From Flavobacterium sp. YO12 (lineage in GTDB: Bacteria; Bacteroidota; Bacteroidia; Flavobacteriales; Flavobacteriaceae), in assembly GCF_004119495.1 (NCBI RefSeq), contig NZ_NRQU01000011.1, forward strand, positions 1 to 64,000: a stretch of DNA of 64,000 nt. Reading direction: 5' to 3'. Below are positions 13,909 to 40,555 of the stretch, in pieces; the stretch's first letter is position 1; each line of letters begins with the position of its first letter. The notes under the pieces were generated by a model. That model was not told where the DNA came from, did not search any database, and was given only the letters and a program-made list of their open reading frames with translations. Both the position numbers and the translations under genes were made by a program.

Positions 13909-14155
13909 AGAAGAGATTATAGCAAGAATTAATGGTTTTTTAGTTGATGAATTTGAAGTTGACAATGACGACATTGAACCAAATGCTAATTTAAAAGATA
14001 CACTTGGGTTAGACAGTCTGGATTATGTTGATTTAGTAGTTTCGATAGAATCTAACTTTGGTGTAAAACTAGTGGAGGCAGATTTTGTTGGAATTTCTGA
14101 TTTTCAAAGTTTCTACGACCTTATTGAAACCAAATTAAAAGCCAAAACAGCTTAA
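13901..14155 (+). CDS. Acyl carrier protein (first of two)
   Basis: The 84-residue acidic protein carries the phosphopantetheine Ser39 in LGLDSLDYVDLV. It overlaps the upstream ketosynthase by 8 bases and the downstream acyltransferase by one base (TAATG), so translation is probably coupled. It should carry the growing aryl-polyene or dialkylresorcinol precursor acyl chain. Confidence 0.92.
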   Translation: MNKEEIIARINGFLVDEFEVDNDDIEPNANLKDTLGLDSLDYVDLVVSIESNFGVKLVEADFVGISDFQSFYDLIETKLKAKTA

Positions 14156-15033
14156 TGAGTCAATGGGATGGCAAATCAAAAGGAACTGTTTTAGGCTATA
14201 GAATATTCGTTTTTTTAATACAAAAAGCGGGTATAAAGTCTGCTTATGTCCTGCTTTATTTTGTTGCCTCTTATTACTTTCTGTTTTTAAAAAAAAGCAA
14301 TCGAGCTATTTTTTATTACTTTAAAGAAAGACTCAACTATTCCTATTTCCAATCAAAAAAAATGGTTTTCAAAAGTTACTATACTTTTGGACAGACCATT
14401 ATTGATAAAATTTCCATTTCGGCTGGAATGCGAAACAAATTCACCTATGAGTTTGACGGAATCGAAACGCTGAAAAAACTTTTAGCCGAAAAAAAAGGCG
14501 GTGTTTTAATTAGCGCTCATGTTGGAAATTTTGAAATCGCAGAACATTTTCTAGGCGACATCGATCTTAATTTTCAAATTAATTTAGTCACAACAGACTT
14601 AGAGCATTCTGCTATTAAAAATTATTTAGCCAGCGTTACTCAAAAACCAACCGTAAAATTCATCATCATCAAAGACGATTTGTCTCATATTTTTGAGATT
14701 AATGCCGCTTTAGCCAATAATGAATTAGTCTGCTTTACCGGAGATCGCTACTTTGAAGGAACAAAATCACTTTCAGAAAACATTTTAGGCAAAGAAGCCA
14801 GCTTTCCGGCAGGACCATTTTTAATCGCTTCAAGACTAAAAGTTCCCGTTGTATTTGTTTATGTTATGAAAGAACCAAATCTGCATTATCATTTATACGC
14901 AAGAGAAGCCACAGTTAAACATCGTGACGAAAAAGCACTCTTGAAAGAGTATGTAACCAGCGTAGAAAATATCTTAAAAAAATATCCGCTTCAATGGTTT
15001 AATTATTTCGATTTTTGGAATGATTTACCATAA
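14155..15033 (+). CDS. LpxL/HtrB-like acyltransferase
   Basis: The 292-residue protein has an N-terminal hydrophobic segment (about 20-45) and the catalytic HX4E motif of lipid A late acyltransferases at His122-Glu127 (AHVGNFE), followed by FTGDRYFEGTKS. Such enzymes move acyl groups from ACP to a hydroxyl at the inner membrane. In a flexirubin cluster it is one of three candidates for joining the polyene acid to the resorcinol. Its start overlaps the ACP stop, linking it to an ACP-borne donor. Confidence 0.82.
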   Translation: MSQWDGKSKGTVLGYRIFVFLIQKAGIKSAYVLLYFVASYYFLFLKKSNRAIFYYFKERLNYSYFQSKKMVFKSYYTFGQTIIDKISISAGMRNKFTYEFDGIETLKKLLAEKKGGVLISAHVGNFEIAEHFLGDIDLNFQINLVTTDLEHSAIKNYLASVTQKPTVKFIIIKDDLSHIFEINAALANNELVCFTGDRYFEGTKSLSENILGKEASFPAGPFLIASRLKVPVVFVYVMKEPNLHYHLYAREATVKHRDEKALLKEYVTSVENILKKYPLQWFNYFDFWNDLP

Positions 15034-15065
15034 TTGGTAAAAAATAACGCAGGTTTTTTCTCATT

Positions 15066-15295: not shown

Positions 15296-15313
15296 TAAAT
15301 TTGCCTATTTTTG
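15296..15313 (+). promoter_or_regulatory. Candidate promoter of the darA-darB segment
   Basis: Two overlapping windows match TAnnTTTG: TAAATTTG (15296-15303) and TATTTTTG (15306-15313). They lie 27-44 bases before the darA ATG. No clear -33 TTTG is present. Confidence 0.4.
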
Positions 15314-15339
15314 TTCGCAACCATAGCCAATCAACCCAA

Positions 15340-16242
15340 ATGAAAAAAGTTCTCGTTATTTATTATACTCAATCCGGACAATTAGAAAGCATTGCACAAA
15401 ACATTGCAAAACCATTTTTAGATTCAGAGGAAATAGATGTAACTTTTTACCAAATACAATTAGAAAAACCTTTTCCTTTTCCTTGGAATAAGGATTCATT
15501 CTTTGATGCCTTTCCAGAATCATTTTTACAGATTCCAACCGCTCTAAAACCAGTTCCAGAAGATATTTTAAATACGAAATTCGACTTGGTGCTTTTCAAC
15601 TATCAAGTTTGGTATTTATCGCCTTCCATTCCTATTAACTCTTTTTTGAAAAGCGGCGAAGCAAAAAAAATTCTAAACAATACACCCGTAATCACCATCA
15701 GCGGTTCACGAAATATGTGGATAATGGCGCAGGAAAAAATCAAAACCCTGCTTAAAGAAGCCAATGCACAATTAGTAGGAAACGTTGCTCTAGTAGATCG
15801 TGTTGGAAACCTAATCAGCGTTATTACAATCGTAGAATGGATGTTCTCTGGCGTTAAGAAAAAATACTTAGGTATTTTTCCGCTTCCAGGAGTTTCAGAA
15901 AAAGACATTCAGGAATCTCCAAAATTTGGAGAAATAATACTTACAGATCTAAAAACGAACAGTTTGAATGATCTACAACCAAAATTAGTCGCAAATGGCG
16001 CCGTAAAAATCAGTCCCTATTTAGTGACCGTAGACAAAACCGCCAATAAAATTTTTAATAAATGGTCAAACCTCATTTATAAAAATCAAAAAAACCGAAA
16101 ACTGCTTCTAAAAGTATTTAATGTTTATTTATTCCTTGCGATTTGGTTAATCTCGCCAATAGTGTATATATTGCACCTTATTTCCTACCCATTTAAGTTA
16201 AAAACCATAAAAAGAGAAACTCAATATTATCAAGGAGTTTAG
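15340..16242 (+). CDS. darA: Dialkylresorcinol-forming enzyme DarA (flavodoxin-like)
   Basis: The start is ATG 15340; an in-frame TTG at 15301 overlaps the promoter and is rejected. The 300-residue product opens with a flavodoxin-type strand and loop (KKVLVIYYTQSGQLESIA), has an ISGSRNMWIMAQ segment and a C-terminal hydrophobic stretch near residue 270. This matches the DarA family. In dialkylresorcinol biosynthesis DarB makes a cyclohexanedione, which DarA oxidises to the aromatic ring. It is 16 bases upstream of darB, the standard pairing. Confidence 0.85.
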   Translation: MKKVLVIYYTQSGQLESIAQNIAKPFLDSEEIDVTFYQIQLEKPFPFPWNKDSFFDAFPESFLQIPTALKPVPEDILNTKFDLVLFNYQVWYLSPSIPINSFLKSGEAKKILNNTPVITISGSRNMWIMAQEKIKTLLKEANAQLVGNVALVDRVGNLISVITIVEWMFSGVKKKYLGIFPLPGVSEKDIQESPKFGEIILTDLKTNSLNDLQPKLVANGAVKISPYLVTVDKTANKIFNKWSNLIYKNQKNRKLLLKVFNVYLFLAIWLISPIVYILHLISYPFKLKTIKRETQYYQGV

Positions 16243-16258: not shown

Positions 16259-17392
16259 ATGTTTGAAGTATATATCACCAAAGCTGCAAAATATTTGCCA
16301 AACGACGCTGTTTCGAATGATGAAATGGAAGCCTATTTAGGCCTTATCAACGATACTGCCTCAAAAGCAAGACGTATTATTTTGCGCAACAACAAAATTA
16401 CAAGCCGTTATTACGCTGTTGATAAAACAGGAAAAAGTACACACAGTAATGCCGAATTAACACGAAATGCTATTTTACCGTTGTTCGACGAAAACTTTAC
16501 ATCTCAGGATCTAGAAGTACTTTCGTGCGGAACCTCAACTCCTGATATATTCCTGCCTTCGCACGCTGCGATGGTTCATGGTCTCTTAAAAAACAAATCG
16601 GTAGAACTAAACTCTTCAACAGGAGTTTGCTGTGCTGGAATGAATTCATTAAAATTTGGTTTTCTTTCTATAAAATCTGGAAATTCAAAAAATGCAATCT
16701 GTACAGGATCAGAAAAAGTTTCGACCTGGCTGAATGCTCAAAAATACAATCACGAAGCCGAAAATTTAAAAAGTCTGGAAGAGCAGCCCATTATTGCTTT
16801 CAAAAAAGACTTTTTAAGATGGATGCTGTCTGACGGTGCCGGCGCTTTTTTATTAGAAAATAAACCAAGAGGTCCGATTTCTCTAAAAATAGAATGGATG
16901 GAAGCTTTTTCGTATGCTTACGAACTAGAAACATGCATGTATGCAGGAGGTGATAAACTAGAAAACGGCGAAATCAAATCATGGAGCGATTACGCACCAG
17001 AACAATGGTTGAACGAATCTGTTTTTGCCATCAAACAAGATGTAAAACTACTGGACGAATTTATTCTTTCTAAAGGCGCAGAAAGCATGAAAGATGCCAT
17101 GGATAAAAACAATATTAAATCTGACGATATTACTTATTTTATTCCTCACGTTTCTTCTAACTTTTTTGTTGAAGGATTAAAAAAAGGATTAAATGAAAGA
17201 GGCATCGGAATGAATGATGATAAATGGTTTATGAATCTTTCTAGAGTGGGTAATGTAGGTTCGGCCTCCATATATTTAGCTTTAGAAGAATTAATGAATT
17301 CAGGAAACTTGAAAAAAGGAGACAAAATTCTTTTATCAGTTCCAGAAAGCGGAAGATTCTCTTTTGCCTACGCTTATTTAACAGTTTGCTAA
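16259..17392 (+). CDS. darB: Dialkylresorcinol condensing ketosynthase DarB (KAS III-like)
   Basis: The 377-residue FabH-like ketosynthase has a catalytic Cys at about 125 in STGVCCAGMNS, His in FIPHVSS and Asn in SRVGNVGSAS, the KAS III triad. DarB-type enzymes join a beta-ketoacyl thioester with an enoyl thioester and cyclise them to the resorcinol precursor. Adjacent darA confirms the role. Its stop overlaps the next start (TAATG). Confidence 0.87.
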   Translation: MFEVYITKAAKYLPNDAVSNDEMEAYLGLINDTASKARRIILRNNKITSRYYAVDKTGKSTHSNAELTRNAILPLFDENFTSQDLEVLSCGTSTPDIFLPSHAAMVHGLLKNKSVELNSSTGVCCAGMNSLKFGFLSIKSGNSKNAICTGSEKVSTWLNAQKYNHEAENLKSLEEQPIIAFKKDFLRWMLSDGAGAFLLENKPRGPISLKIEWMEAFSYAYELETCMYAGGDKLENGEIKSWSDYAPEQWLNESVFAIKQDVKLLDEFILSKGAESMKDAMDKNNIKSDDITYFIPHVSSNFFVEGLKKGLNERGIGMNDDKWFMNLSRVGNVGSASIYLALEELMNSGNLKKGDKILLSVPESGRFSFAYAYLTVC

Positions 17393-18320: not shown

Positions 18321-18725
18321 ATGGAAAAAGAAAATGTACCACAAGATAAAAGTAACTTAACCAAAAACAATGTTAAAGAGCTTTTATACGCGACTGATGA
18401 AAACGGCAATTATACCACCACCTTAAGTACAGGCTGGGAACCCAAAACAATTGCATTATCAAATTCTATCGAAGAAATAAACGAACGTATTGCCGAAGCA
18501 AAACAACAAGTTAAAACTGGCGAAGTAAGTCCGATTTCTTATTATATGGAACTTAATAAAATGGATCTTACGATTTTGTCAAGCTACGTAGGAATGTGGA
18601 AATGGCGCGTAAAAAGACATTTTAAACCTGCTGTTTTTGCCAAATTAAGCGATTCTATTTTGAAAAAATATGCTGATGCTTTTAGCATTTCAGTATCCGA
18701 ATTAAAAAACTTTAAAACAGATTAA
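18321..18725 (+). CDS. Conserved hypothetical protein, flexirubin cluster
   Basis: I do not recognise this 134-residue protein. It is hydrophilic, without signal peptide or membrane segment. Its middle (about 55-75) is likely helical (SIEEINERIAEAKQQVKTGEV), and it has a basic, Trp-containing patch (GMWKWRVKRHFKP). Its stop overlaps the next gene's start by one base (TTAATG), so its product may work with the BtrH-like protein. A small accessory or regulatory subunit of the assembly enzymes is possible. Confidence 0.6.
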   Translation: MEKENVPQDKSNLTKNNVKELLYATDENGNYTTTLSTGWEPKTIALSNSIEEINERIAEAKQQVKTGEVSPISYYMELNKMDLTILSSYVGMWKWRVKRHFKPAVFAKLSDSILKKYADAFSISVSELKNFKTD

Positions 18726-19723
18726 TGCAAGTCACTTTTACACATCACCAATCTGCTCACTGTGAAAATGGAGTAGCATCGAATCTGTTAAAAAACAACG
18801 GACTCAACATAAGCGAACCAATGGTTTTTGGTATCGGTTCAGGACTTTTCTTTGTGTATTTACCCTTTATAAAAGTCAATTACGCACCAGCAATCAGCTA
18901 TAGAACTTTACCGGGACAAATTTTTAATAAAGTAGCGACCCGCTTAAATCTTAAAATAAAAAGACAAAAATTTTCATCAACAGTAAACGCAAACAAAGCG
19001 CTTGATGAAAATTTAAAAAATAATATTCCAACCGGATTACAAGTTGGCGTTTATAATTTAAGTTATTTCCCTGACGAATACCGTTTTCATTTCAATGCAC
19101 ATAATTTAGTTGTTTACGGAAAAACCGATAAAGACTATTTGATCAGCGATCCTGTTATGGAAACTGTAACCACTTTAACGCACGACGAATTAGACAAAGT
19201 ACGTTTTGCAAAAGGAGCTTTCGCACCACGCGGACAAATGTATTATCCAATTCAAATTCCAAGTGAAGTCGATTTAAAAAGCGCCATCATTAAAGGAATA
19301 AAAAACACTTGCAGAGATATGCTTGCGCCAATGCCAATTGTGGGCGTTCGCGGAATCAAATTTGTATCTAAGCAAATTAGAAAATGGCCTGTAAAACACG
19401 GTACCAAAAAAGCCAATCACTATTTGGCACAAATGGTTCGTATGCAGGAAGAAATTGGAACCGGCGGCGGAGGTTTCCGTTTTATTTATGCCGCATTTTT
19501 ACAAGAAGCTTCTGTTATTTTAAACAATGAAGAACTTAAAGAACTTTCTAAAGAAATGACAAAAATTGGTGATTCATGGCGAGATTTTGCCGTTGAAGCC
19601 TCACGAATTTATAAAAACAGAAGTGCCAAAGAAGACGCTTACAATACTATTGCCGATGAACTTCTAGACATTGCCAATAGAGAAGAAATCTTTTTCAAAA
19701 AATTAAAAAAAGCCATCAGCTAA
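18725..19723 (+). CDS. BtrH-like acyltransferase (BtrH_N plus DUF4872 type)
   Basis: The 332-residue protein begins with the papain-like BtrH_N signature: Cys13 in SAHCENG, His126 in FNAHNLVVYG and Asp in LISDPV, a plausible catalytic triad. The C-terminal half matches the DUF4872 type (GTGGGGFRFIYAAFLQEA). BtrH of butirosin synthesis transfers an acyl group from ACP to an amine. By analogy this enzyme could transfer an ACP-bound polyene to the dialkylresorcinol hydroxyl. That is inference. Confidence 0.75.
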   Translation: MQVTFTHHQSAHCENGVASNLLKNNGLNISEPMVFGIGSGLFFVYLPFIKVNYAPAISYRTLPGQIFNKVATRLNLKIKRQKFSSTVNANKALDENLKNNIPTGLQVGVYNLSYFPDEYRFHFNAHNLVVYGKTDKDYLISDPVMETVTTLTHDELDKVRFAKGAFAPRGQMYYPIQIPSEVDLKSAIIKGIKNTCRDMLAPMPIVGVRGIKFVSKQIRKWPVKHGTKKANHYLAQMVRMQEEIGTGGGGFRFIYAAFLQEASVILNNEELKELSKEMTKIGDSWRDFAVEASRIYKNRSAKEDAYNTIADELLDIANREEIFFKKLKKAIS

Positions 19724-19729: not shown

Positions 19730-20482
19730 TTGCAATCTATAATTAAAATAGAATCCCTTTCGAAAAAGTACAAAGATGCCGACCAGTATTCTTTGAACAA
19801 TGTTTCGCTGGCTATAAATGAAGGTGAAATTTTTGGTTTACTAGGTCCAAACGGTGCCGGAAAAACAACCTTAATTTCAATGCTCTGCGGATTGGTAAAA
19901 CCAACTTCGGGACATTTTACAATTGATGGTTTAAACTATGCCAATCATTCTTCAAAAATTAAAAAAATCATAGGCGTTGTTCCTCAGGAATATGCCTTAT
20001 ATCCTACTCTTACCGCAAGAGAAAATCTTCATTACTTTGGAAGTATGTACGGTTTAAAAGGCTCTGATTTAAAAGATAAAGTAATTGAAACTTTAGATCT
20101 TTTGGGTTTATTAAAATTTGCCGATAAACGAGTTGAAACTTTCTCTGGCGGAATGAAACGCCGTGTCAATTTAATTGCCGGAATTCTGCATAAACCAAAA
20201 GTTTTATTTCTAGACGAACCAACCGTTGGGGTTGATGTTCATTCTAAAAATGCCATTATAGAATATCTAAAAGTGTTGAACCAAAACGGAACAACGATTA
20301 TTTATACTTCACATCATTTGGCTGAAGCCGAAGATTTCTGCAGCAACATTGCTATTTTAGACCAAGGTCAAATTTATGCGCAAAACACACCTTCAATTTT
20401 AATTGAATCGACAAAAGATGCTCGAAATCTCGAAGACGTTTTTATTTCATTAACCGGTAAAGACTTGAGAGATGATATATAA
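19730..20482 (+). CDS. ABC transporter ATP-binding protein, TTG start
   Basis: The 250-residue ATPase has Walker A GPNGAGKTT, Q-loop VPQEYALY, signature FSGGMKRR, Walker B VLFLDEPTVGVD and the H-loop SHH, all intact. No in-frame ATG precedes Walker A, so TTG 19730, seven bases after the previous stop, is the likely start. It overlaps the next gene (an ABC-2 permease) by 11 bases. The pair should export a hydrophobic product, probably pigment or precursor. Confidence 0.9.
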   Translation: MQSIIKIESLSKKYKDADQYSLNNVSLAINEGEIFGLLGPNGAGKTTLISMLCGLVKPTSGHFTIDGLNYANHSSKIKKIIGVVPQEYALYPTLTARENLHYFGSMYGLKGSDLKDKVIETLDLLGLLKFADKRVETFSGGMKRRVNLIAGILHKPKVLFLDEPTVGVDVHSKNAIIEYLKVLNQNGTTIIYTSHHLAEAEDFCSNIAILDQGQIYAQNTPSILIESTKDARNLEDVFISLTGKDLRDDI

Positions 20483-21752
20483 AATTTGGATGTCAGTTGT
20501 AAAAGAATTTTTACTCCTTAAACGAGATTTAGGCGGGTTGATTATTCTATTTATAATGCCATTGGTTTTGGTCATTACCGTTACATTAATTCAGGACAGT
20601 ACTTTTAAAAAAGTCAGCGATTCTAAAATTCCCATTTTATTAGTCGATAATGATAAAGGTTCTGTATCAAAAACCGTTTTTAACAATTTAGAAAAAAGCG
20701 ATTTATTCAGCGTTGTTACACAAATCGATAATAAAGCGATTACCGAAGATATTGCACGAGAAAATGTTTACAAAGGAAAATTTCAACTGGCTATTGTAAT
20801 TCCACAAGATTTAAGCTCTGACTTACAAGCCAAAGTAGATCAAAATGTCGAGAAAATTGTCAGCAGTTTAGGTATGACTGATAGTACTGCAGCGAGTGAA
20901 CCGCAGCGAATAATAAAAGAAAAAGAAGTAAAACTGTATTTTGATCCAGCGGTTCAAATGAGTTTTAAAAATGCGGTCATGAATTCGATCGATAAAATGA
21001 TTTCGCAAATCGAAACCAAATCTATTTATACCACTTTTCAGAATCAATTAGGAGGAAATGCCGACTTTGAGCAAAAAAGTTTCATTTCTTTCAAAGAAAT
21101 AATTCCGAGAATAAACAACAAAGAAGTTCGTCCAAATTCTGTACAGCATAATGTTCCAGCGTGGACACTTTTCGCCATATTTTTTATTGTAATTCCGTTA
21201 TCCATTAATATTGTAAAAGAAAAATCGCAGGGAACTTTCGTTCGATTAAGAACCAATCCCGTTTCCAATTTGGTTGTAATAATCGGAAAAACCATTACCT
21301 ACTCGATCATCTGTATGATTCAGTTTTATATGATGGTTGCTGTTGCCGTATTTTTATTTCCATCCATCGGATTGCCTTCTTTAAACATCGAAGGGCATTT
21401 AGCATTAATGAGTGTCGTTGCCTTATTTTCAGGTTTCGCCGCCATTGGATTCGGAATTTTATTAGGAACCGTTGCCAGTACACAAGAACAATCGGCTCCC
21501 TTTGGCGCAACAAGCGTTATTATTCTCGCTGCAATTGGCGGAGTTTGGGTTCCAGTTTTTGCTATGCCAAAAATCATGCAGATTATTGCCAAATCATCAC
21601 CCATGAACTGGGGATTAGAAGCTTTTTATGATGTTTTATTGCGCAGCGTTTCATTCCTGGAAATCATTCCAAAAATAAGTTTGTTATTTTTGTTCTTTAT
21701 TATCACAACATCCATTGCCTTATTTTATGACAAAAAGAAAAGAACAGTTTAA
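20472..21752 (+). CDS. ABC-2 type permease
   Basis: The 426-residue permease has one N-terminal membrane helix (about 20-42), a long extracytoplasmic domain (to about 230), then five to six helices including NVPAWTLFAIFFIVIPLSINI, the ABC-2 arrangement. It partners the overlapping ATPase. Its end overlaps the thioesterase gene by 26 bases. Confidence 0.88.
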   Translation: MIYKIWMSVVKEFLLLKRDLGGLIILFIMPLVLVITVTLIQDSTFKKVSDSKIPILLVDNDKGSVSKTVFNNLEKSDLFSVVTQIDNKAITEDIARENVYKGKFQLAIVIPQDLSSDLQAKVDQNVEKIVSSLGMTDSTAASEPQRIIKEKEVKLYFDPAVQMSFKNAVMNSIDKMISQIETKSIYTTFQNQLGGNADFEQKSFISFKEIIPRINNKEVRPNSVQHNVPAWTLFAIFFIVIPLSINIVKEKSQGTFVRLRTNPVSNLVVIIGKTITYSIICMIQFYMMVAVAVFLFPSIGLPSLNIEGHLALMSVVALFSGFAAIGFGILLGTVASTQEQSAPFGATSVIILAAIGGVWVPVFAMPKIMQIIAKSSPMNWGLEAFYDVLLRSVSFLEIIPKISLLFLFFIITTSIALFYDKKKRTV

Positions 21753-22184: not shown

Positions 22185-22768
22185 CCTGCAAGGTTTCCAA
22201 AACCTTGTAGGTATCCATAATATCGAATAAAGATGACACAACAAATCTTATTTGTACTAGCAGTATTAATAGATGCGTTTTTATTCTAGAAAACATGGTA
22301 ATAAAGCGAAGTCCGATATTGAGAAGTTTGAAAAAAATAAAGCTGATATGGAATATGAAAAGAAGTTTGATTATTTAAATCAGAATGTTTTCTTTGATCT
22401 TGAAAACAAAAATTCAGGATTCGATTCTGAATCTATAAAGTATTTTTTGGAAGAAGATTTTAAAATAGTATTAGATAGAGTTGAGAGTTTAAATCTTGGA
22501 ATTAGTGGTATCGAACCCTGGTTTGATGAAGAATTTTATGATGTAATTGTTGTAGAAGATTATGGTAATAATCCTTTTGATTCTAATTGGTATAAAAACG
22601 CATTCGAAAATTTAAAAAAAGGAAAGAAAAATCTTCTCTATGCAGCTAGTTATATTGTACCACTTGACTTATTATAGACAATTGTTATCAACTAATAGCT
22701 TAAAATCTGCATAGAATTAATTAAAAGTCTAAAATCATACACCTACAAGGTTTTAAAAACCTTGCAGG
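22185..22768. other. Candidate cassette: unknown gene between 27-bp inverted repeats
   Basis: The 27-base segment 22185-22211 (CCTGCAAGGTTT-cca-AAACCTTGTAGG) is itself a dyad. Its reverse complement recurs at 22742-22768 with only two differences in the centre. The two inverted copies bracket the unknown gene at 22273-22677, between the thioesterase and a ketosynthase. No transposase and no target duplication are visible. It could be a mobilised cassette or two chance neighbours of a dispersed repeat family. Confidence 0.5.
22273..22677 (+). CDS. Hypothetical protein inside inverted-repeat cassette
   Basis: I do not recognise this 134-residue protein. It is hydrophilic, rich in Lys/Asp/Glu/Asn, with a basic start (RFYSRKHGNKAK) and an acidic middle (EPWFDEEFYDVIVVEDYG), and has no signal peptide or membrane helix. 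It looks more AT-rich than the adjacent biosynthetic genes. The flanking inverted repeats and unrelated character suggest a passenger gene rather than a pigment gene. Confidence 0.55.
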   Translation: MRFYSRKHGNKAKSDIEKFEKNKADMEYEKKFDYLNQNVFFDLENKNSGFDSESIKYFLEEDFKIVLDRVESLNLGISGIEPWFDEEFYDVIVVEDYGNNPFDSNWYKNAFENLKKGKKNLLYAASYIVPLDLL

Positions 22769-25420: not shown

Positions 25421-25678
25421 ATGGAAGCATTAAAAGAAGAATTGAAAAACAAAATTATTACTACTCTAAACCTTGAAGATATCGCAGTAGAAGATATTGC
25501 TGATAACGATCCTTTGTTTGGAGATGGTTTAGGTTTGGACTCAATTGATGCACTTGAATTGATCGTGATTTTAGATAAAGATTACGGAATTAAATTAGTA
25601 GATCCGAAAGAGGGAAAAACAATTTTCCAGTCTATCGAAACTATGGCGGCTTATATCAGCGCTAACAGAACTAAATAA
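25421..25678 (+). CDS. Acyl carrier protein (second of two)
   Basis: The 85-residue acidic ACP carries the phosphopantetheine attachment Ser41 in LGLDSIDALEL. It lies two bases after the ketosynthase-like gene and is followed by a 26-base perfect inverted repeat and the third ketosynthase. Two ACPs in one cluster suggest separate handling of the aryl-polyene and alkyl chains. Confidence 0.92.
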   Translation: MEALKEELKNKIITTLNLEDIAVEDIADNDPLFGDGLGLDSIDALELIVILDKDYGIKLVDPKEGKTIFQSIETMAAYISANRTK

Positions 25679-28067: not shown

Positions 28068-28848
28068 TAACGCACAAAAACATATCGCTGTTTTTTATCT
28101 TTTTATTGCTTTTATTGTTTCTTCTGAAAATAAGTCTAGCAATTAATGAATTATGGTTTCTTATAATTGCTTTACTATGGATCGGAATAAATGCTTTTGG
28201 TTCTGCACGCATTTCTTCCAATTATCATGTAAAAGCATTTTGCAGTAATCCGTTAGAAACAGAAAAAAAATCGCGCTTACTTTTGACGACGGTCCAAGTA
28301 TTTACACTTTACAAGTTTTAGAACTTTTAAAAAAATACAATGCCAAAGCGACCTTTTTCTGTATTGGAAAAAACATTGAAGCACATCCCCAAATTCTCCA
28401 AAAAGTGATTGATGAAGGACATTTAGTTGGAAATCATTCTTATTCACATTCTAAGTTTTTTGATTTTTATAATGCTTCAACAATAACCGAAGAACTTCAA
28501 AAAACAGACGCGCTTTTAGAAAAATTCACTTCCAAAAAGATCAACTTCTTTCGTCCGCCTTATGGAGTTACAACACCTTCGATAAGAAGAGCTTTAAAAG
28601 TAACTGGACATAAAACAATTGGCTGGAATATTCGTTCACTTGACGGTGGAACCCAAAATCAGGAATTAATTTTCAATCGACTCATTAAGCATATATCTCC
28701 CGGCGGAATTGTACTTTTGCATGATACAGCAGAACATTCTGTTTTGGTACTGGAACAGTTTTTGCAATTTTTACAGCAGAATAATTATGAAGTAGTTTCG
28801 ATTGAAGAATTACTGAATCTTAAAGCTTATGAAATTGAACGCGGATGA
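28064..28848 (+). pseudogene. Polysaccharide deacetylase-like gene with -1 disruption at an A8 tract
   Basis: The frame from ATG 28064 encodes two hydrophobic segments and then goes out of frame after A8 (28263-28270), stopping at 28321. From 28270 the second frame continues the protein perfectly with the NodB domain: TFDDGP, the metal-binding HSYSHS, RPPYG and LLHDTAE, to 28848. Total length is one base short of a multiple of three; one more A, or a -1 slip on the A tract, would give a 261-residue membrane-anchored deacetylase. All catalytic motifs are intact, so it may be an assembly error, a recent mutation or slippage expression. It overlaps the upstream gene by four bases. Confidence 0.75.
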
Positions 28849-32330: not shown

Positions 32331-33518
32331 ATGAAACCTATATTATCTCAGCAAGACCTGCTCAGTTCAACTTCTTTTTGTGTTATTGTACCCACTTACA
32401 ATAATCAAAAAACATTGAAAAAAGTGCTGGATTCTATTTTAGATTTCACTTCAAATGTCATTATTGTTAATGATGGTTCGACTGACGAAACAAACGAAAT
32501 TCTAAAACAATATCATCATCTAACTCAAATTCATCATCCTAAAAATCTAGGAAAAGGCAGAGCGCTGCGTAATGGTTTTAGAAAAGCAATCGAACAAAAT
32601 TTTGAATATGCCATTACGATTGATTCAGACGGACAGCATTTTGCTTCTGATATTCCTGTTTTTATCGAAGCAATTCAAAAAGAACCCAATTCGCTTTTAA
32701 TTGGAAGCCGAAACATGACTCAGGAAAATGTGCCGAAGAAAAGCAGTTTTGGAAATAAATTTTCGAATTTCTGGTTTAAGTTTGAAACTGGAATTGTACT
32801 TGAAGATACACAATCAGGTTTTAGATTGTATCCGTTAAAATTAATTCCGAAGCAATTTTACACCAATAAATTTGAGTTTGAAATTGAAGTAATTGTTCGC
32901 TCCGCTTGGAAAGGAATTGTAGTTAAAAATATTCCTATTCAAGTTTTGTATGATCCTGCAGAACGCGTTTCGCATTTTCGTCCATTTAGAGATTTTACCC
33001 GAATCAGTATTTTAAATACCGTTTTGGTAATCAACGCTCTTTTGTACATTAAACCGAGAGATTTTTTTAGGAGAGCAAAAAAAAAAGGTTTTAAAAAATT
33101 CTTTCTTGAAGATATTTTAGAAAGCAACGATTCTAATTTCATAAAATCAGCCTCAATTGCTTTAGGAGTTTTTATTGGTATCTCGCCATTTTGGGGTTTT
33201 CAAACCGTGTTGCTTTTTACTTTTGCAGCATTATTCAGGCTCAACAAAGTCATTGCCTATCTAGCTTCAAATGTAAGTTTCCCGCCTTTCATTCCGTTTG
33301 TCATATATGGTTCCTTAAAAATGGGAAGCTTTTTTGTAGCGGGAGATGATGCTTTGGTTTTAGATAGTTCTATTACGTTTGATGATATTCAAAAAAATGC
33401 TACACAATATATCGTAGGAAGTCTTATTTTAGCATCCGTTTCGGCGCTATCAGCTGGCTTTATAAGTTATCTGCTTTTAAGCGCTTTTAGTTCTAAGAAC
33501 AAAACGAATATTAAGTAA
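32331..33518 (+). CDS. Family 2 glycosyltransferase fused to DUF2062 membrane domain
   Basis: Residues about 15-240 form a GT-A domain with VPTYNN, VNDGSTDETNE and the metal-binding DSDGQH (98-103). Residues about 260-390 form a membrane domain of the DUF2062 type (GVFIGISPFWGFQT). GT2-DUF2062 fusions occur in aryl-polyene clusters. It may glycosylate a lipid intermediate or act in anchoring; the substrate is unknown. Confidence 0.8.
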   Translation: MKPILSQQDLLSSTSFCVIVPTYNNQKTLKKVLDSILDFTSNVIIVNDGSTDETNEILKQYHHLTQIHHPKNLGKGRALRNGFRKAIEQNFEYAITIDSDGQHFASDIPVFIEAIQKEPNSLLIGSRNMTQENVPKKSSFGNKFSNFWFKFETGIVLEDTQSGFRLYPLKLIPKQFYTNKFEFEIEVIVRSAWKGIVVKNIPIQVLYDPAERVSHFRPFRDFTRISILNTVLVINALLYIKPRDFFRRAKKKGFKKFFLEDILESNDSNFIKSASIALGVFIGISPFWGFQTVLLFTFAALFRLNKVIAYLASNVSFPPFIPFVIYGSLKMGSFFVAGDDALVLDSSITFDDIQKNATQYIVGSLILASVSALSAGFISYLLLSAFSSKNKTNIK

Positions 33519-33684: not shown

Positions 33685-36600
33685 ATGCATCAATACTTCT
33701 ACGCCATTCATTTATTTGTAAACCGACGAAAATCTTTATCGGTTCTTTTGGCCGTTTTGATGCTTTTAGTATTTGGCTTTTTTGCTTCACAAATTAAGTT
33801 TGAAGAGGACATCAGCAAGCTTATTCCAGCAAACGACAAAGCCGATGCGACCGCAAAAGTTTTAAAACAATTAAATTTTGCTGATAAAACAACCGTTATT
33901 TTTGAACTTGAAAAAAACGGTTCTCAAGACGATTTAAAAGAAATGGCTGCTGTTTTTTCAGACAGCGTTTCTAAATCCTGCAAACCATACATTACTGGAA
34001 TTCAAGGAAAAATAGACGAAGAAAATATTCAAGAAACTATTGATTTTGTTTACAATAATCTGCCTCTTTTTCTAGATGACAACGATTATACTGCCATTCA
34101 AAACAAACTGCAAAAAGACAGCATTGCGGCAACTGCACAAGGAAATTACAAATCAATCATTTCTCCATCTGGATTTATTACCAAAGATTTTATTCTGCAG
34201 GACCCGCTTGGAATTTCTTTCATCGCTTTAAAAAAATTACAGCAATTAAATATTGGCGACGATTTTACACTCGATAATGGTTTTGTAATGACAAAGGATA
34301 AAAAGAAATTACTTCTTTTTATAACCTCAGATATTTCATCAAGCGAAACGGAAAAAAACTCCATTTTTGCCGAAAAACTTAAATCAATTCAAGAAAACTT
34401 AAATCAGCAGTTTAAAGGAAAAACTTCTGTGAGTTATTTTGGTTCGGCTTTAATTGCGGCTGCCAATGCAAAACAAATTAAAAGCGATATTGTTTTAACA
34501 ACATCAATTGCGATGTTTACCTTAATGTTGATTCTGATATTATTTTACAGAAAAATATTAATTCCGCTTATTATTTTTCTTCCAACCGTTTTTGGAGCTT
34601 TATTTGCCGTTGCCTTTTTATATTTTGTAAAAGAACAAATTTCAGCGATTTCTCTAGGAATTGGATCGATCTTGTTGGGAATTACGATCGATTATTCGCT
34701 TCACATTCTTACACATTACAAACACAACAGCGATATAAAAACCTTGTACAAAGACATTACGATGCCTGTTATTATGAGCAGTTCAACAACTGCCGTTGCC
34801 TTTTTATGTTTGCTTTTTGTAAAATCGGATGCCTTAAATGATCTCGGAATTTTTGCCGCTGTTATCGTTATGGCAACTGGAATTTTCTCTCTTTTGATTA
34901 TTCCGCATTTGTATAATCCAAAACAAGACAATTTTGAACATAAAAAAAATGCGATTGATAAACTCGCGCATTTCTCCTTTCATAATAATAAAATCCTGAT
35001 TGGTCTGTGTGTTATAATTACAATCGTTTGTTGTTTTACTTATAATAATGTTGGCTTCAATAACGATTTATCGCAGTTAAATTTTGTTCCAAAAGACATT
35101 AAAGCGGCCGAAAAACAATTGGAAGAAAGCACAAGTTTAACTTCCAAAACCATTTATGTTGCCTCGTACGGAAAAAGTATGGAGGAAGTATTGCAGAACA
35201 ACAACAAGCTTTTTGGAGATTTATCTACAGCAAAAGAACAAGACAAAATATTAAATTTTAGTTCAATTGGCGGTATTGTGCTTTCGCAAGAAGCGCAAAA
35301 AGAGAAAATTGAAAAATGGAATTCATTTTGGAACGCTGAGAAAAAAGAAAATTTGAAGTCACAATTGATTTCCGAAGGTTCAAAACTTGGCTTTAAACCA
35401 ACAACCTACTCGATCTTTTTTGATCGTTTAGGCTTTGATTTTAAACCAATTTCTATTTCAGATTATTTAAAAGTTCAAGCATTGCAGCTGAAAGAATTTG
35501 TAACCGAAAAAAATGGTTTTTATACGATTTCAACTTTAGTAAAAGTTACCCCAAAACAACGTGATGTTTTTGTAAAATCAACTTCTGCCAAAGACAACAT
35601 CATTGCGATTGATCGTCAGCAAATGAATGAAACCTTTTTCAGTACTTTAAAAACTGATTTTAATTCGCTTGTAAATTATTCTTTTGTTGCCGTAATTTTT
35701 ATTTTATTTTTCTTCTTCCGAAGAGTCGAATTAGTGATTATCAGCTGTATTCCAATTGCTTTAACTGGAATTGTTACGGCTGGAATTATGGGCATTTTTG
35801 GTATTCAAATGAATATTTTCAGCATGATTGTCTGCACCTTAATTTTTGGTCATGGTGTTGATTTTAGTATTTTCATGACAAGCGCTTTACAAAAAGAATA
35901 TTCGTCAGGAAAAAATGAAATTGCCATTTACAGAACTTCAATTATTCTGGCGGTAATTACCACTATTTTAGGAATTGGTGCGATGATTTTTGCAAAACAT
36001 CCAGCATTACGATCTATTTCTTCCGTTTCTTTAATTGGAGTTTTTGCAGCTTTAATTATTACATTTATTTTTTATCCTATACTGTTCAAATTATTTTTGT
36101 CAAATAGACCCAAAAACGGAAATCCTCCTTTTCAATTACGCACTTTTATTCATGGTGTAATTTCGTTTTTCTATTATGGTATGGGTGGCATTTTAATGTC
36201 TATTTTCAGTTTTACGATAATGCCGATTTTACCGCTGAGCAAAAAAACAAAAATGAAAGCTTTTAGATATGTGATTTCAAAATTCATGAAATCTGTATTG
36301 TATTCAAACCCATTTATCCACAAAAAAGTCATCAATAATTTTAATGAAACTTTTGATAAGCCAGCTGTTATAATTGCAAATCATTCTTCGTTTATAGATA
36401 TTCTTGCAATGGGAATGCTGAGTCCAAAAATTATTTTTCTGGTAAGCGACTGGGTTTACAACTCTCCCATATTTGGCGGAACAGTTAGAAAAGCAGGTTT
36501 TTATCCCGTTTCTGAAGGTCTTGAAGGCGGTGTAGAACATTTAAGAAAAAAAGTTGAAGAAGGTTATTCCTTAATGGTATTTCCAGAAGGAACTCGTTCT

Positions 36601-37362
36601 GAAAACAATGTTGTAAAAAGATTTCATAAAGGCGCTTTCTTTCTTGCCCAAGAATTTAACTTAGACATTATTCCTGTTGTGATTCATGGTGCCTCAGAAG
36701 CGATTCCAAAAGGCGATTTTGTAATTCATCGCAGTACGCTTACCCTTTCAATTTTAGAGCGAATTACTCCCGAAAATAATTCTTTTGGAAATAATTATGC
36801 CGAGCGTACAAAACAAATCAGTTCTTTCTTTAAGGCTGAATATCGCAAAATTCGCCAACAGCTCGAAGGTCCTGCTTATTTCAAATCAATGCTCATTAAC
36901 AGCTATGATTATAAAGAACTTGAAATAGGCAATAGTGTAAAAAAAGATCTAAGTCAAAATTTAGAAACCTATTACAACTTAAATAAATACATTGATTCTA
37001 AAGCTAAAATACTCCATCTTGCAAATGATTATGGGCAGCTGGATGTTTTATTGACTTTGCAGGAACCACAGCATAAGGTGTTTTCATTTATAAATGATGA
37101 AGAAAAATTGGCTGTTGCAAAAACGAATTATTTCCTTAAAAAAAGAAAAATATTTTATTCAGATCCATTAGAATCAGCATTTGAAAATCAACATGAAATT
37201 CTTTTAATTTCTGATGAAAGCTATGTTGCTGCTTTTGAAAAAATCATTTTAAGCACAACAATAATTTTAATTAACTGCCAAGATTTAAAAACTAAATTGA
37301 TTGCAGCTGGTTTTGAAATTACTGCTGAAGAAAATGATATAACCGTAGTAAAGAAAAAATAG
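33685..37362 (+). CDS. MMPL/RND transporter fused to PlsC-type acyltransferase and extra C-terminal domain
   Basis: The 1225-residue protein has two RND/MMPL halves (to about residue 860), each with an extracytoplasmic loop and a membrane bundle. A PlsC/LPLAT domain follows, with NHSSFIDILA (His about 899) and FPEGTRSEN (about 967). The last 120-150 residues resemble a Rossmann-like methyltransferase (KAKILHLANDYG) without a clear SAM motif. MMPL-acyltransferase fusions occur in aryl-polyene-type clusters. It probably exports or flips the lipid-like product and acylates it. Confidence 0.82.
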   Translation: MHQYFYAIHLFVNRRKSLSVLLAVLMLLVFGFFASQIKFEEDISKLIPANDKADATAKVLKQLNFADKTTVIFELEKNGSQDDLKEMAAVFSDSVSKSCKPYITGIQGKIDEENIQETIDFVYNNLPLFLDDNDYTAIQNKLQKDSIAATAQGNYKSIISPSGFITKDFILQDPLGISFIALKKLQQLNIGDDFTLDNGFVMTKDKKKLLLFITSDISSSETEKNSIFAEKLKSIQENLNQQFKGKTSVSYFGSALIAAANAKQIKSDIVLTTSIAMFTLMLILILFYRKILIPLIIFLPTVFGALFAVAFLYFVKEQISAISLGIGSILLGITIDYSLHILTHYKHNSDIKTLYKDITMPVIMSSSTTAVAFLCLLFVKSDALNDLGIFAAVIVMATGIFSLLIIPHLYNPKQDNFEHKKNAIDKLAHFSFHNNKILIGLCVIITIVCCFTYNNVGFNNDLSQLNFVPKDIKAAEKQLEESTSLTSKTIYVASYGKSMEEVLQNNNKLFGDLSTAKEQDKILNFSSIGGIVLSQEAQKEKIEKWNSFWNAEKKENLKSQLISEGSKLGFKPTTYSIFFDRLGFDFKPISISDYLKVQALQLKEFVTEKNGFYTISTLVKVTPKQRDVFVKSTSAKDNIIAIDRQQMNETFFSTLKTDFNSLVNYSFVAVIFILFFFFRRVELVIISCIPIALTGIVTAGIMGIFGIQMNIFSMIVCTLIFGHGVDFSIFMTSALQKEYSSGKNEIAIYRTSIILAVITTILGIGAMIFAKHPALRSISSVSLIGVFAALIITFIFYPILFKLFLSNRPKNGNPPFQLRTFIHGVISFFYYGMGGILMSIFSFTIMPILPLSKKTKMKAFRYVISKFMKSVLYSNPFIHKKVINNFNETFDKPAVIIANHSSFIDILAMGMLSPKIIFLVSDWVYNSPIFGGTVRKAGFYPVSEGLEGGVEHLRKKVEEGYSLMVFPEGTRSENNVVKRFHKGAFFLAQEFNLDIIPVVIHGASEAIPKGDFVIHRSTLTLSILERITPENNSFGNNYAERTKQISSFFKAEYRKIRQQLEGPAYFKSMLINSYDYKELEIGNSVKKDLSQNLETYYNLNKYIDSKAKILHLANDYGQLDVLLTLQEPQHKVFSFINDEEKLAVAKTNYFLKKRKIFYSDPLESAFENQHEILLISDESYVAAFEKIILSTTIILINCQDLKTKLIAAGFEITAEENDITVVKKK

Positions 37363-38881: not shown

Positions 38882-38887
38882 AGAATC

Positions 38888-40555
38888 ATGAAAAACAGAA
38901 TCTCATTTTTTTTATTTATCGGTTTTCTACTGTCGCTTGTTTCTTGCGGAACATCAAAATCAATGCACCATCAACCCGAAATTTCGGGATATAATGCACA
39001 AAAACCAGTTGTCAAAAAAATCTCTGATTCTGTTTTTACCTCAGGAAAAAATTCTCTTTTAAAAAACAGACAAGGTCTTTGGGAATTGTATGCTGAAGGC
39101 GATCCGCTTGAAATTGGTTTAAACACCGGCGCCTTGACAGATTCACTTTTAAAAAAACAACAACAGATTTTTTTCTCTAAAATAACCGATTTAATTCCGT
39201 CCAATTTTGAACAGAAAATGCTTCGTCATTTTTTAAAATGGTACAATCGAAAATTATTTTTGAATGTTCCTGAGGAATATCAAACGGAAATTTTTGGCGT
39301 TTCAGAATATACTTCACATGAGTTCGACAATATTGCATCCAAATATCAACGCGGCTTATATTTACACGCTGCACACGATATTGGCCATGCTCTTCAAGAT
39401 TTAGCTTTAGTCGGCTGTTCTTCTTTTGCTGCTTGGAATGAAAAATCGGAAGACGGGAGTTTAATTCTTGGACGAAATTTTGATTTTTATGTAAACGATG
39501 CTTTCGCCGAAAATAAAATCGTGGCATTCATAAATCCGAAAGAAGGTCATAAATTTATGATGATTACTTGGCCGGGAATGATTGGTGCGGTTTCTGGAAT
39601 GAACCAAGAAGGTTTAACAATTACAATTAATGCATCAAAATCGAAAATTCCATTAATTGCCAAAACACCAATTTCGATTCTTACTCGAGAAATTTTACAG
39701 CACGCCGCAACAATAGACGAAGCCGTTGCGATTGCCAAAAAAAGAAAAGTATTTGTTTCTGAATCTATAATGGTAGGAAGTGCAAATGATAATAAAGCAG
39801 TTTTAATCGAAGTTTCTCCCAAAAAAATGGATGTTTACGACGTTTCAAACAGTAATGAATTAATTTGTTCGAATCATTTTCAAGGTGATGCTTTTAAATA
39901 TGATAAAAGAAATCAAGCTCAAATCGCTAACAGCCATTCTGAATATCGATTTGAAAGAATGCAGGAACTTTTATCTGAAAATCCAAAAGTAAATCCTGAA
40001 ATTGCTTCTGAAATTCTTCGAAATAAAAACGGTTTAAAAGATATTCCGCTTGGTTATGGATCTGAAAAAGCACTAAATCAGCTTATGGCACATCACGGAA
40101 TTATTTTTAAACCTAAAGAAAAATTAGTCTGGGTGTCTGCAAATCCGTATCAATTAGGCGAATTTGTCTGCTACAATTTAGATACTGTTTTTAGTAATCG
40201 AAAAACAGATACTTTGGTTTCGTTTCAACTAGAAAATTTAAATATTGCCAAAGATCCTTTTCTAGAAACTACAGCTTACGAGAATTATAAAAAATTTAGA
40301 ATTGAAGATCATAAAATAGATGCTCTGCTTGAAAAAAAAGAAAGTATTTCGGTTGCATTTATTCAAAATTACCAATCCTTAAACCCTGATTATTGGGTTG
40401 TATATTATAAGCCAGGATTGTACTTTTACCAAATAAAAGATTTTAATCAGGCAAAGCTTAATTTTGAAAAAGCTTTGACGAAAGAAATCACCACTGCACC
40501 CGAAAAAGAAAAAATTGAAAAATATTTAAAAAAGATCAAAAGAAAACTACAATGA
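38888..40555 (+). CDS. C45-family (AAT/choloylglycine-hydrolase-like) lipoprotein acyltransferase or hydrolase
   Basis: The 555-residue protein has a lipoprotein signal (LVSCG, Cys20) and an Ntn-hydrolase domain. The predicted nucleophile is Cys177 in VGCSSFAAW, with LILGRNFDFY directly after, typical of acyl-CoA:6-APA acyltransferase-like proteins. The last 60 residues look TPR-like. An extracytoplasmic acyltransferase could form the polyene-resorcinol ester. Equally it could be a hydrolase. It overlaps the ligase gene by four bases. Confidence 0.75.
   Translation: MKNRISFFLFIGFLLSLVSCGTSKSMHHQPEISGYNAQKPVVKKISDSVFTSGKNSLLKNRQGLWELYAEGDPLEIGLNTGALTDSLLKKQQQIFFSKITDLIPSNFEQKMLRHFLKWYNRKLFLNVPEEYQTEIFGVSEYTSHEFDNIASKYQRGLYLHAAHDIGHALQDLALVGCSSFAAWNEKSEDGSLILGRNFDFYVNDAFAENKIVAFINPKEGHKFMMITWPGMIGAVSGMNQEGLTITINASKSKIPLIAKTPISILTREILQHAATIDEAVAIAKKRKVFVSESIMVGSANDNKAVLIEVSPKKMDVYDVSNSNELICSNHFQGDAFKYDKRNQAQIANSHSEYRFERMQELLSENPKVNPEIASEILRNKNGLKDIPLGYGSEKALNQLMAHHGIIFKPKEKLVWVSANPYQLGEFVCYNLDTVFSNRKTDTLVSFQLENLNIAKDPFLETTAYENYKKFRIEDHKIDALLEKKESISVAFIQNYQSLNPDYWVVYYKPGLYFYQIKDFNQAKLNFEKALTKEITTAPEKEKIEKYLKKIKRKLQ

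Follow-up and report, generated by a model that had tools for sequence, protein, structure and literature searches.

DarE, a papain-like protein with a small partner, as the probable ester-forming enzyme of flexirubin biosynthesis in Flavobacterium

Genes of the cluster

The window analysed here is a stretch of 64,000 nucleotides from Flavobacterium sp. YO12 (contig NZ_NRQU01000011.1). It holds genes for the two ester-linked parts of the orange pigment flexirubin, a dialkylresorcinol (DAR) and an aryl polyene (Table 1). Flexirubin-type pigments are described as chemical markers of Bacteroidota (PMC3992019). The order of the genes is largely repeated in related genomes, and because of this recurrence and of the curated cut-offs that are exceeded, the gene calls cannot be attributed to chance. 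The name DarA follows the usage in PMC3949708 and PMC3992019; the longest open reading frame of darA begins at 15301, ahead of the start used here.

An earlier note on this DNA named an LpxL-like acyltransferase, a BtrH-like protein (here DarE) and a C45 lipoprotein as three rival enzymes for the ester bond. All three reading frames are real and intact at the positions listed in Table 1. A fourth acyltransferase, overlooked in that account, is the PlsC-type domain at the end of the MMPL exporter.

Table 1. Features of the window and their assignments.
Feature	Position	Strand	Remarks
FlxA tyrosine ammonia-lyase, polyene starter	8952..10472	+	NCBIfam FlxA_rubin_TAL 902.3 bits, cut-off 700
ApeF-like acyl carrier protein	13901..14155	+	PP-binding; 42.2 bits to ApeF
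LpxL-like acyltransferase	14155..15033	+	Corresponds to the acyltransferase domain at the C-terminus of ApeJ (E. coli)
DarA, resorcinol-forming aromatase	15343..16242	+	41-69% identity to 11 other Bacteroidota DarA
DarB, ketosynthase of DAR formation	16259..17392	+	NCBIfam resorcinol_DarB 675.3 bits, cut-off 550
DarD (NCBIfam DarG)	18321..18725	+	134-aa partner; shares 1 base with the start of darE
DarE (NCBIfam DarH)	18725..19723	+	BtrH_N + DUF4872 papain-like acyltransferase; candidate ester-forming enzyme
ABC transporter ATPase, DarD-DarE module	19730..20482	+	
ABC-2 permease, DarD-DarE module	20472..21752	+	
ApeE-like acyl carrier protein	25421..25678	+	PP-binding; 75.4 bits to E. coli ApeE
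Glycosyltransferase family 2	32331..33518	+	Counterpart of the ApeJ glycosyltransferase part, 110.9 bits
MMPL exporter (ApeM-like) with C-terminal PlsC-type acyltransferase (ApeD-like)	33685..37362	+	
C45/AAT-family lipoprotein	38888..40555	+	Cys20 in lipobox-like context, Cys177
FlxY-type aryl-CoA/AMP ligase	40552..41847	+	NCBIfam FlxY_rubin 746.3 bits, cut-off 520

Sequence and predicted structure of DarE and DarD

DarE contains two Pfam domains above cut-off (PF14399, 173.9 bits; PF16169, 214.9 bits) and scores 523.9 bits against the NCBIfam model NF053550 (DarH_acyl), for which the equivalog cut-off is 300. Cys13 and His126, the two residues pointed out earlier, are indeed present, and together with Asp142 they are invariant in 17 of 17 sequences of one alignment and 45 of 45 of another. 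Asp142 did not figure in the earlier account. The structure of DarE was predicted with a pLDDT of 94.6, and the best full-length fold matches of the model are CtaG, AziU3 and CcbD (Z 20.5-25.1), with which the predicted model shares a papain-like domain combined with a helical domain. When the DarE profile was compared with the sequences of solved structures, 14 matches were obtained, the best being a designed coiled coil, and AziU3 appeared at E 0.11. Genes for acyl carrier proteins (ACPs) lie near darE both in the window and in related loci. The earlier proposal that DarE takes acyl groups from an ACP is supported to the extent that DarE is a candidate ACP-dependent acyltransferase.

The small gene darD is coupled to darE by the overlap proposed before, which amounts to a single base, and its product can be accepted as the partner of DarE: darD directly precedes darE at every locus for which that DNA is available, 74 of 74 and 23 of 23 (11 of 85 DarE copies, which start at most 133 bases from a sequence end, are left out of this count). 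DarD scores 210.3 bits against NF053545 (flexirubin_DarG, equivalog cut-off 170). It has a small strand pair and a helical domain resembling the XRE/Cro fold. A fold search gave 376 matches, none with E <= 0.001; in most of the best 50 the matching entry is an XRE-type helical domain or a protein containing one. A profile search against the sequences of solved structures gave no match up to E 10. In Pseudomonadaceae, DarD is present in the same 26 genomes as DarE. It was found neither in the 47 polyene-only genomes of this family that were searched (out of 99) nor in G411, G531, G473, G118 and G238.

The adjacent transporter genes suggest another role, in which DarD, DarE and the ABC transporter would act as one module that exports or processes either DAR or the finished pigment, the ester being made by another enzyme. 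An ABC gene was seen in 64 of 84 stretches carrying DarE, C39 peptidase domains of exporters are among the next-best folds of DarE after CtaG, AziU3 and CcbD (Z 14.0 and below), and the homologue in Azoarcus was termed a BtrH-like peptidase by Schoner et al. We nevertheless consider such a module unlikely, in view of the far better fit of full-length DarE, including its helical DUF4872 half, to acyltransferases linked to carrier proteins, and because a peptide substrate is not apparent. In the four DarE-bearing Pseudomonadaceae loci viewed, moreover, those ABC, ACP and ketosynthase genes of the module that were seen lie on the strand opposite to DarA-B-D-E. Since ABC genes occur in 64 and ketosynthase genes in 47 of the 84 stretches, co-occurrence by itself cannot separate synthesis from export.

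Ketosynthase-like proteins can also form C-O bonds, as NonJ and NonK do for nonactin. A ketosynthase-like protein of the module acting as the acyltransferase would agree with the occurrence of ketosynthase genes just given and of ACP genes in 49 of the 84 stretches. It would also agree with the replacement of the HGT-motif histidine by glutamine in 18 of 39 ketosynthase reading frames, all of the rhodocyclalean and Variovorax kind (39 of 41 were compared, two of at most 300 residues being dropped). This change suggests a non-elongating enzyme. Cys-His-His is kept, however, in the other 21 of the 39 and in the three ketosynthase proteins of the window; the substitution tracks lineage rather than the DAR-polyene trait and would be compatible with a chain-loading step before DarE as well. 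A ketosynthase-type ester synthase therefore seems to us scarcely credible.

Occurrence of DarE with resorcinol and polyene genes

PF13723 was chosen here as the marker of polyene genes; among the genomes without DarE, those in which a polyene cluster was viewed around it are G118, G238 and G473. Among 296 Bacteroidota genomes, DarA occurs in 23, PF16169 in 24 and PF13723 above cut-off in 25, counts from which G079 and G237 were left out since their PF13723 match is below cut-off. All 23 DarA genomes carry PF16169 and PF13723, and PF16169 is absent from both PF13723 genomes without DarA (0/2; G118 and G238). In the 248 Pseudomonadaceae genomes DarA was found 27 times, always with PF13723 above cut-off (27/27), and in 26 of these genomes a distance of about 3 kb separates DarE from DarA. 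None of the 99 Pseudomonadaceae genomes with PF13723 and no DarA contains DarE; one of them, G531, has a divergent PF16169 protein. The sole genome of this family that combines DAR and polyene genes without DarE, G473, has DarA and DarB, lacks DarD and appears to resemble P. chlororaphis. In G017 the DarD-DarE and DarA-DarB pairs are on separate contigs, and both are kept. A DarA-like protein is also encoded in three Streptomyces records. Two of these, plasmid loci that encode a KAS III-type synthase as well, were viewed, and no BtrH-family gene was seen in the stretch inspected. Neighbouring genes are co-inherited, and the Fisher P values take no account of kinship.

PF16169 was rejected as a pure marker of DarE, as it also catches divergent relatives, namely the proteins of G158, G411 and G531 and the second copies of G210, G265 and G269. 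All of them lie outside the DarE clade, the support of which is moderate (0.863), and DarD is missing in those tested. A plasmid search with DarE returned 60 records, all below 60% identity; the best 30 of the 60, at 23-32%, are distant BtrH relatives.

DarE also occurs apart from DarA. The genome search for DarA covered 50 of the 84 DarE stretches (titles were listed for 80), including 31 of the 32 without DarA or DarB nearby; L062, a Variovorax, was left out. Fourteen of the 50 DarE-bearing genomes lack DarA at E 1e-5 and one more has a weak partial match only. Seven of these 15 have DarB-like proteins and eight have neither DarA nor a DarB-like protein, so that DarE may use acceptors other than DAR there. 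Seven of the eight are metagenome bins (the eighth is L141), and three fall together in a single myxobacterial group. When ten reading frames near two myxobacterial modules were scanned with Pfam, domains of the ketosynthase, CLF-like and B12-binding types and one slime-mould repeat were found, and no acceptor enzyme.

The other acyltransferases

The LpxL-like protein matches the broad family PF03279 (50 bits, cut-off 22.3), and the earlier reading that its HX4E motif is intact holds, with the motif at His122-Glu127. Against the model of the lipid A acyltransferase LpxL/HtrB (TIGR02207) it reaches only 27.7, far from the cut-off of 297.8. It matches the C-terminal domain of ApeJ with 61.9 bits (22% identity over 304 alignment columns), the HX4E motifs aligning as HVGNFE and HLGDVE. 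The C-terminus of the MMPL exporter carries PF01553 (residues 888-1000, HSSFID at 900), and this PlsC-type domain matches E. coli ApeD. The two proteins belong to the membrane-type acyltransferases, their respective motifs, HX4E and HX4D, are intact, and late intermediates from E. coli apeD and apeJ mutants are described in PMC8253772, which could speak for a role of either in ester formation. Yet the E. coli aryl-polyene (APE) cluster with ApeJ and ApeD has no DAR genes, and for this reason both look, from their sequences, like general APE-lipid genes rather than preferred ester enzymes. G118 and G238, genomes without DarA, moreover retain the LpxL-like protein, and it was not seen in the stretches of G099 and G017 that were examined. 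As counterparts of ApeJ and ApeD, the two were set aside; that one of them makes the ester is quite improbable.

The C45 protein is a member of the family named earlier: PF03417 is matched, the NCBIfam model C45_proenzyme (NF040521) gives 234.9 bits with a cut-off of 85, and inspection confirms Cys177 as well as Cys20 in its lipobox-like context. These features would suit an ester synthase outside the cytoplasm. Of the 47 genomes searched, 16 gave an ortholog-level match, and each of these belongs to Bacteroidota. The protein may correspond to FlxW, judging from gene order only. FlxW, a 'ligase-like enzyme', was put forward as a proposal for the ester step in Chitinophaga pinensis, and it is the one published suggestion for the joining enzyme that we found. 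The distribution of the C45 protein does not fit a general polyene-DAR ester synthase, and the protein was rejected as such. It is kept in the polyene clusters of G118 (664 bits) and G238 (486 bits), neither of which has DarA or DarE, and an ortholog-level match occurs in 16 of the 33 genomes with both DarA and DarE and is missing in the other 17. These 17 include all the proteobacterial genomes and two of Bacteroidota, namely G099, with a match of 28 bits, and the Muribaculaceae bin G310, without any; G340, also among the 17, is intermediate with 159 bits at 28% identity. G300, with its weak DarA match, was kept out of the 33; one of the presence searches behind this set used 38 genomes. For these reasons esterification after export, as the earlier note envisaged, is unlikely to be a general route, and we regard ester formation by the C45 lipoprotein as highly improbable.

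The BtrH-like candidate and its small partner thus stand, while the equal standing of three rivals and the C45 route do not: the LpxL-like protein is an ApeJ counterpart, the distribution of the C45 protein does not fit, and DarE is favoured.

Proposed role of DarD-DarE

We consider it probable that DarE, together with DarD, forms the flexirubin ester. The substrates, product and order of steps that we infer are as follows. Cys13 of DarE, activated by His126 and Asp142, would accept the finished aryl polyene from an ACP as a thioester, and the ApeE-like ACP is a candidate for the donor carrier. DarE would then use this chain to acylate one of the phenolic hydroxyls on the DAR made by DarB and DarA, with DarD serving in docking or activation. 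The reaction would be located in the cytoplasm, given that an ACP would serve as donor and that, judged by eye, neither DarD nor DarE has an N-terminus resembling an export signal. The adjacent ABC-2 transporter and the LolA2, LolB2 and MMPL genes would subsequently carry the ester to the outer membrane.

The enzyme joining the two parts of flexirubin is not established in the literature that we found, and the present analysis narrows the question to a single candidate, for which both the residues and a partner can be named. With confirmation, aryl esters would join amides among the bonds made by papain-like carrier-dependent transferases, and there would be a genetic marker separating polyene-DAR hybrids from producers of plain aryl polyenes or plain DAR. 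A wider and more tentative idea is that DarD and DarE together make up a papain-like ACP:phenol O-acyltransferase, a carrier-dependent ester synthase of two components that occurs across several bacterial phyla, that the XRE-like fold of the partner serves docking rather than DNA, and that clusters like that of G323 make undescribed polyene-ester pigments. G323 is a Geobacter bin with DarB, polyene genes and DarD-DarE, in which DarA was not found; its products could then be polyene esters of a cyclohexanedione or of some other compound made by DarB.

Comparison with known systems

NCBIfam already names the families DarH_acyl (NF053550), as an acyltransferase, and flexirubin_DarG (NF053545), and the model names are silent on reaction, acceptor and pairing. 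In a literature search confined largely to the main texts of freely accessible articles, no paper was met that credits DarE/DarH with the flexirubin ester. The closest structural match is CtaG of closthioamide biosynthesis (PDB 9QUZ, 9QVJ, 9QVL and others; Z 25.1, rmsd 3.2, 295 residues aligned). The numbering of the triad is nearly equal, Cys13/His126/Asp142 in DarE and Cys11/His128/Asp144 in CtaG, the latter taken from entry titles that list the changes C11A, H128A and D144N. CtaG forms an amide-type bond. It shares 12-13% identity with DarE, which differs in having a small partner encoded by an adjoining gene and in that its product would be an aryl ester. CcbD of celesticetin biosynthesis (PDB 7YN1, 9DKR, 9DKS) aligns over 302-306 residues with Z 20.5-22.0 and 12% identity. 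According to their titles, two of its entries are complexes with a carrier-protein domain, as expected of a carrier-dependent transferase. CcbD is known for amides, its acceptor being an amino sugar. BtrH of butirosin biosynthesis has the same N-terminal Pfam domain (PF14399) as DarE, for which a separate NCBIfam equivalog exists. PMC10318531 terms BtrH an acyl carrier protein:aminoglycoside acyltransferase, and the group that it acylates is an amine (PMC8430323). The precedents of CtaG, CcbD and BtrH thus concern amides, not aryl esters.

A complex of two proteins is found in AziU2/AziU3 of azinomycin biosynthesis (PDB 7WUW, 8GS1), where AziU3 matches DarE with Z 24.0-24.1 over 303-305 residues at 15-16% identity and its His and Asp align with the DarE triad in the weak sequence match given above. 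Kinship of the partners is not indicated, as AziU2 is not among the best 50 of the 376 DarD fold matches. The nearest genetic parallel is Azoarcus sp. BH72, the arcuflavin producer, for which the portion of PMC3949708 available to us gives no function for darD or darE. There the two genes, annotated as coding for a conserved hypothetical protein and for a BtrH-like one, immediately follow darA-darB and are accompanied by ABC genes. The polyene genes are in two other loci apart from the dar locus, and the polyene-DAR ester was inferred from MS fragmentation (PMC3949708).

Candidate acyltransferases in the flexirubin cluster

Three open reading frames had been proposed in an earlier note as rival enzymes for the ester bond between the polyene and the dialkylresorcinol (DAR): an LpxL-like acyltransferase, a BtrH-like protein and a C45 lipoprotein. 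All three are present and intact at the coordinates assigned to them, and their families were borne out by Pfam and NCBIfam matches. The BtrH-like protein has the expected Cys13 and His126, to which Asp142 can be added, and the start of its gene is indeed overlapped by one base by an upstream frame encoding 134 residues. We refer to this pair as DarD and DarE after Azoarcus (PMC3949708, Table 1); the NCBIfam names are DarG and DarH. The three acyltransferases are real, but a fourth had been overlooked: the MMPL exporter ends in a PlsC-type domain. FlxA, DarB, FlxY, LolA2 and LolB2 are also encoded in the cluster, each exceeding its NCBIfam cut-off.

Features of the flexirubin cluster and adjoining genes in the window
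Feature	Coordinates	Strand	Remark
Tryptophan-halogenase-like flavoprotein	7600-8850	-	PF04820, 80 bits; next to tyrosine ammonia-lyase, strands opposed; candidate role in flexirubin ring chlorination
LpxL-like acyltransferase	14155-15033		HX4E
DarD (NCBIfam DarG)	18321-18725		134 residues
DarE (NCBIfam DarH)	18725-19723		BtrH-like
134-residue ORF	22273-22677	+	between thioesterase and ketosynthase; no Pfam match at E 0.01
Polysaccharide deacetylase	28064-28848	+	N-terminal ORF and a second ORF starting at GTG lie in different frames, with an apparent shift of frame in A-rich sequence between them; gene is broken or the assembly is in error
Glycosyltransferase	32331-33518		
MMPL exporter	33685-37362		PlsC-type acyltransferase domain at C-terminus
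C45 lipoprotein	38888-40555		

Comparison with the 18 proteins of the aryl-polyene (ape) cluster of E. coli CFT073 suggests a role for two of the acyltransferases. At 73 bits and 22% identity (304 columns), the LpxL-like protein aligns to ApeJ over the C-terminal half of the latter, with the HX4E motifs in register. The glycosyltransferase also matches ApeJ (110.9 bits); the two domains of E. coli ApeJ are therefore represented by two genes in the window. The PlsC domain aligns to ApeD, the counterpart of which is thus fused to the exporter. No match to DarA, DarB, DarD or DarE was found among the 18 proteins. Mutants in apeD and apeJ yield late intermediates, and ApeD and ApeJ were proposed to link the polyene to an anchor (PMC8253772). 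In view of these matches, the missing dar counterparts and the mutant data, the LpxL-like protein and the PlsC domain are best read as components of general polyene-lipid assembly. No query protein from the window matched E. coli ApeB; an ApeB-like methyltransferase occurs in the polyene clusters of genomes G118, G238 and G269 (loci L208, L210, L211 and L214).

Distribution of DarE, DarD and the C45 lipoprotein

Among 296 evenly sampled Bacteroidota genomes, 23 encode DarA, 24 the PF16169 domain of DarE, and 25 the polyene marker PF13723, a chain-length-factor family, over cut-off. All 23 DarA genomes carry both domains. The remaining two PF13723 genomes, G118 and G238, are without PF16169, and the sole additional PF16169 genome (G158) has a divergent subfamily member and no DarD. 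In 248 Pseudomonadaceae genomes the counts are 27, 28 and 126, respectively. PF13723 exceeds the cut-off in all 27 DarA genomes, 26 of which have DarE about 3 kb from DarA and also DarD. DarE was found in none of the 99 Pseudomonadaceae genomes with PF13723 but without DarA, nor DarD in the 47 polyene-only ones searched for it; among genomes without DarE, the equation of PF13723 with a polyene cluster was inspected only in G118, G238 and the exception G473. Divergent PF16169 proteins occur in G531, which has PF13723 but no DarA, and in G411, which matches neither. Searches for DarD found none in G411, G531, G118 or G238 and recovered it in G017 and G099. Fisher tests of co-occurrence gave very small P values, with kinship ignored. 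Judged by gene content, DarE tracks the polyene plus DAR.

The C45 lipoprotein is distributed differently. Of the 47 genomes searched, 16 have an ortholog-level match (at least 421 bits), every one of them assigned to Bacteroidota by kinship or locus title. Such matches are absent from 17 of the 33 with DarA and DarE. These 17 comprise all the proteobacterial ones, plus two Bacteroidota, G099 with a score of 28 bits and G310, a Muribaculaceae bin with no match; G340, also among the 17, matches at an intermediate level (159 bits, 28% identity). In G118 and G238, Bacteroidota that have a polyene cluster but no DarA, DarD or DarE, C45 is kept, with 664 and 486 bits, and so is the LpxL-like protein, with 327 and 235 bits; the stretches inspected from them show no ABC pair. 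G238 has a DarB-like protein elsewhere (L234, 378 bits). C45 tracks the Bacteroidota polyene cluster and not DAR. A ligase-like protein, FlxW, was proposed for the ester without a test (PMC3992019), and by gene order the C45 gene may correspond to it.

Exceptions to the pattern

Other results run against a strict link between DarE and DAR. Of 50 genomes with DarE, 14 lack DarA and a fifteenth matches it only weakly and in part. A DarB-like protein is found in seven of these 15; eight, including three related myxobacterial genomes, have neither. Seven or more of the eight come from metagenome bins, which makes the absence uncertain, but DarE may act on other acceptors in them. DarE sequences from genomes without DarA are scattered across the DarE tree, which fits repeated loss or incompleteness. 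In the Geobacter bin G323 (L203, L152, L153), one of the seven with a DarB-like protein, a contiguous flexirubin-like cluster holds TAL, AMP ligase and polyene ketosynthase genes with DarB and DarD-DarE. DarA was not found in this genome, and a new pigment from the polyene and the DarB product is possible. The myxobacterial genomes G307, G316 and G324 (L148, L149, L154), without DarA or DarB, carry DarD-DarE with adjoining ABC transporter genes, followed in L149 and L154 by a ketosynthase or CLF-like protein and a B12-binding-domain protein.

The converse case is G473, where DarA, DarB and a polyene cluster occur without DarD or DarE; the stretch inspected there shows no ABC module either. An AraC-type regulator lies close to its dar genes. 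The dar cluster of Pseudomonas chlororaphis PCL1606, consisting of darA, darB, darC and two AraC/XylS regulators, makes 2-hexyl-5-propylresorcinol (PMC6403133); the G473 locus resembles it and may be a cluster of this kind. The DarA tree places G473 in one group (support 0.97) with seven betaproteobacterial sequences, all from DarE loci. As most loci in the tree were gathered through DarE, this is no more than a hint at loss of DarD-DarE. Two Streptomyces plasmid loci have a DarA-like protein adjoining a KAS III-type synthase and an ACP; across the 24.9 and 20.9 kb inspected, neither has a gene of the BtrH family. G017 has DarA-DarB and DarD-DarE on separate contigs, and in Azoarcus BH72, where the authors inferred a polyene-DAR ester from MS fragmentation, darD-darE follow darA-darB and the polyene genes lie elsewhere (PMC3949708).

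The DarD-DarE pair and a probable mechanism

Searching for a conserved DarE motif by a GC-rich pattern yielded 84 stretches in several phyla, with 85 DarE copies. In 74 of these copies DarD is the gene directly upstream, on the same strand; the other 11 begin no more than 133 bases from the end of the available sequence. In the Bacteroidota sample DarD is found at this position in 23 of 23 cases and is absent at all four divergent paralogs. In the predicted DarD model (pLDDT 91.4) a pair of strands and a long helix accompany a helical domain at the C-terminus that resembles the XRE/Cro kind; a fold search gave no match better than E 0.01. DarD could be a DNA-binding regulator, but its strict pairing with an enzyme argues more for a subunit or adaptor.

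In mechanistic terms, DarE and DarD most likely transfer the ACP-bound polyene to a resorcinol hydroxyl. The polyene would remain on the ApeE-type ACP until accepted by Cys13 of DarE, which would hand it to the hydroxyl with assistance from DarD. The ABC-2 pair and the LolA2, LolB2 and MMPL genes would act in transport, as was suggested for LolA2/LolB2 (PMC11885536). In 18 of 39 ketosynthase ORFs from DarE loci the His of the HGT motif is Gln (C-Q-H; L059, L062, L065, L083, L100, L106, L113, L117 and 10 more), at least 17 of them from Variovorax, Rhodocyclales-type or other betaproteobacterial contigs. The substitution would fit a chain-loading, non-elongating role.

Comparison with known acyltransferases

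Cys13, His126 and Asp142 are invariant in all 45 aligned DarE sequences. Over its full length the predicted DarE model (mean pLDDT 94.6) resembles CtaG (Z 25.1, rmsd 3.2, 295 aligned), AziU3 (Z 24.1) and CcbD (Z up to 22.0), with C39 peptidase domains well below (Z 14.0 and less). Structure entry titles list the CtaG variants C11A, H128A and D144N, to which the three DarE residues correspond by position number only, and CcbD in complex with a carrier-protein domain. BtrH has been called an acyl carrier protein:aminoglycoside acyltransferase (PMC10318531). In NCBIfam DarH already bears the name of an acyltransferase and DarG that of a flexirubin protein; our literature search found no paper crediting the pair with the ester bond. 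If shown, the DarE reaction would be a variant within a known kind of enzyme, forming an aryl ester instead of an amide.
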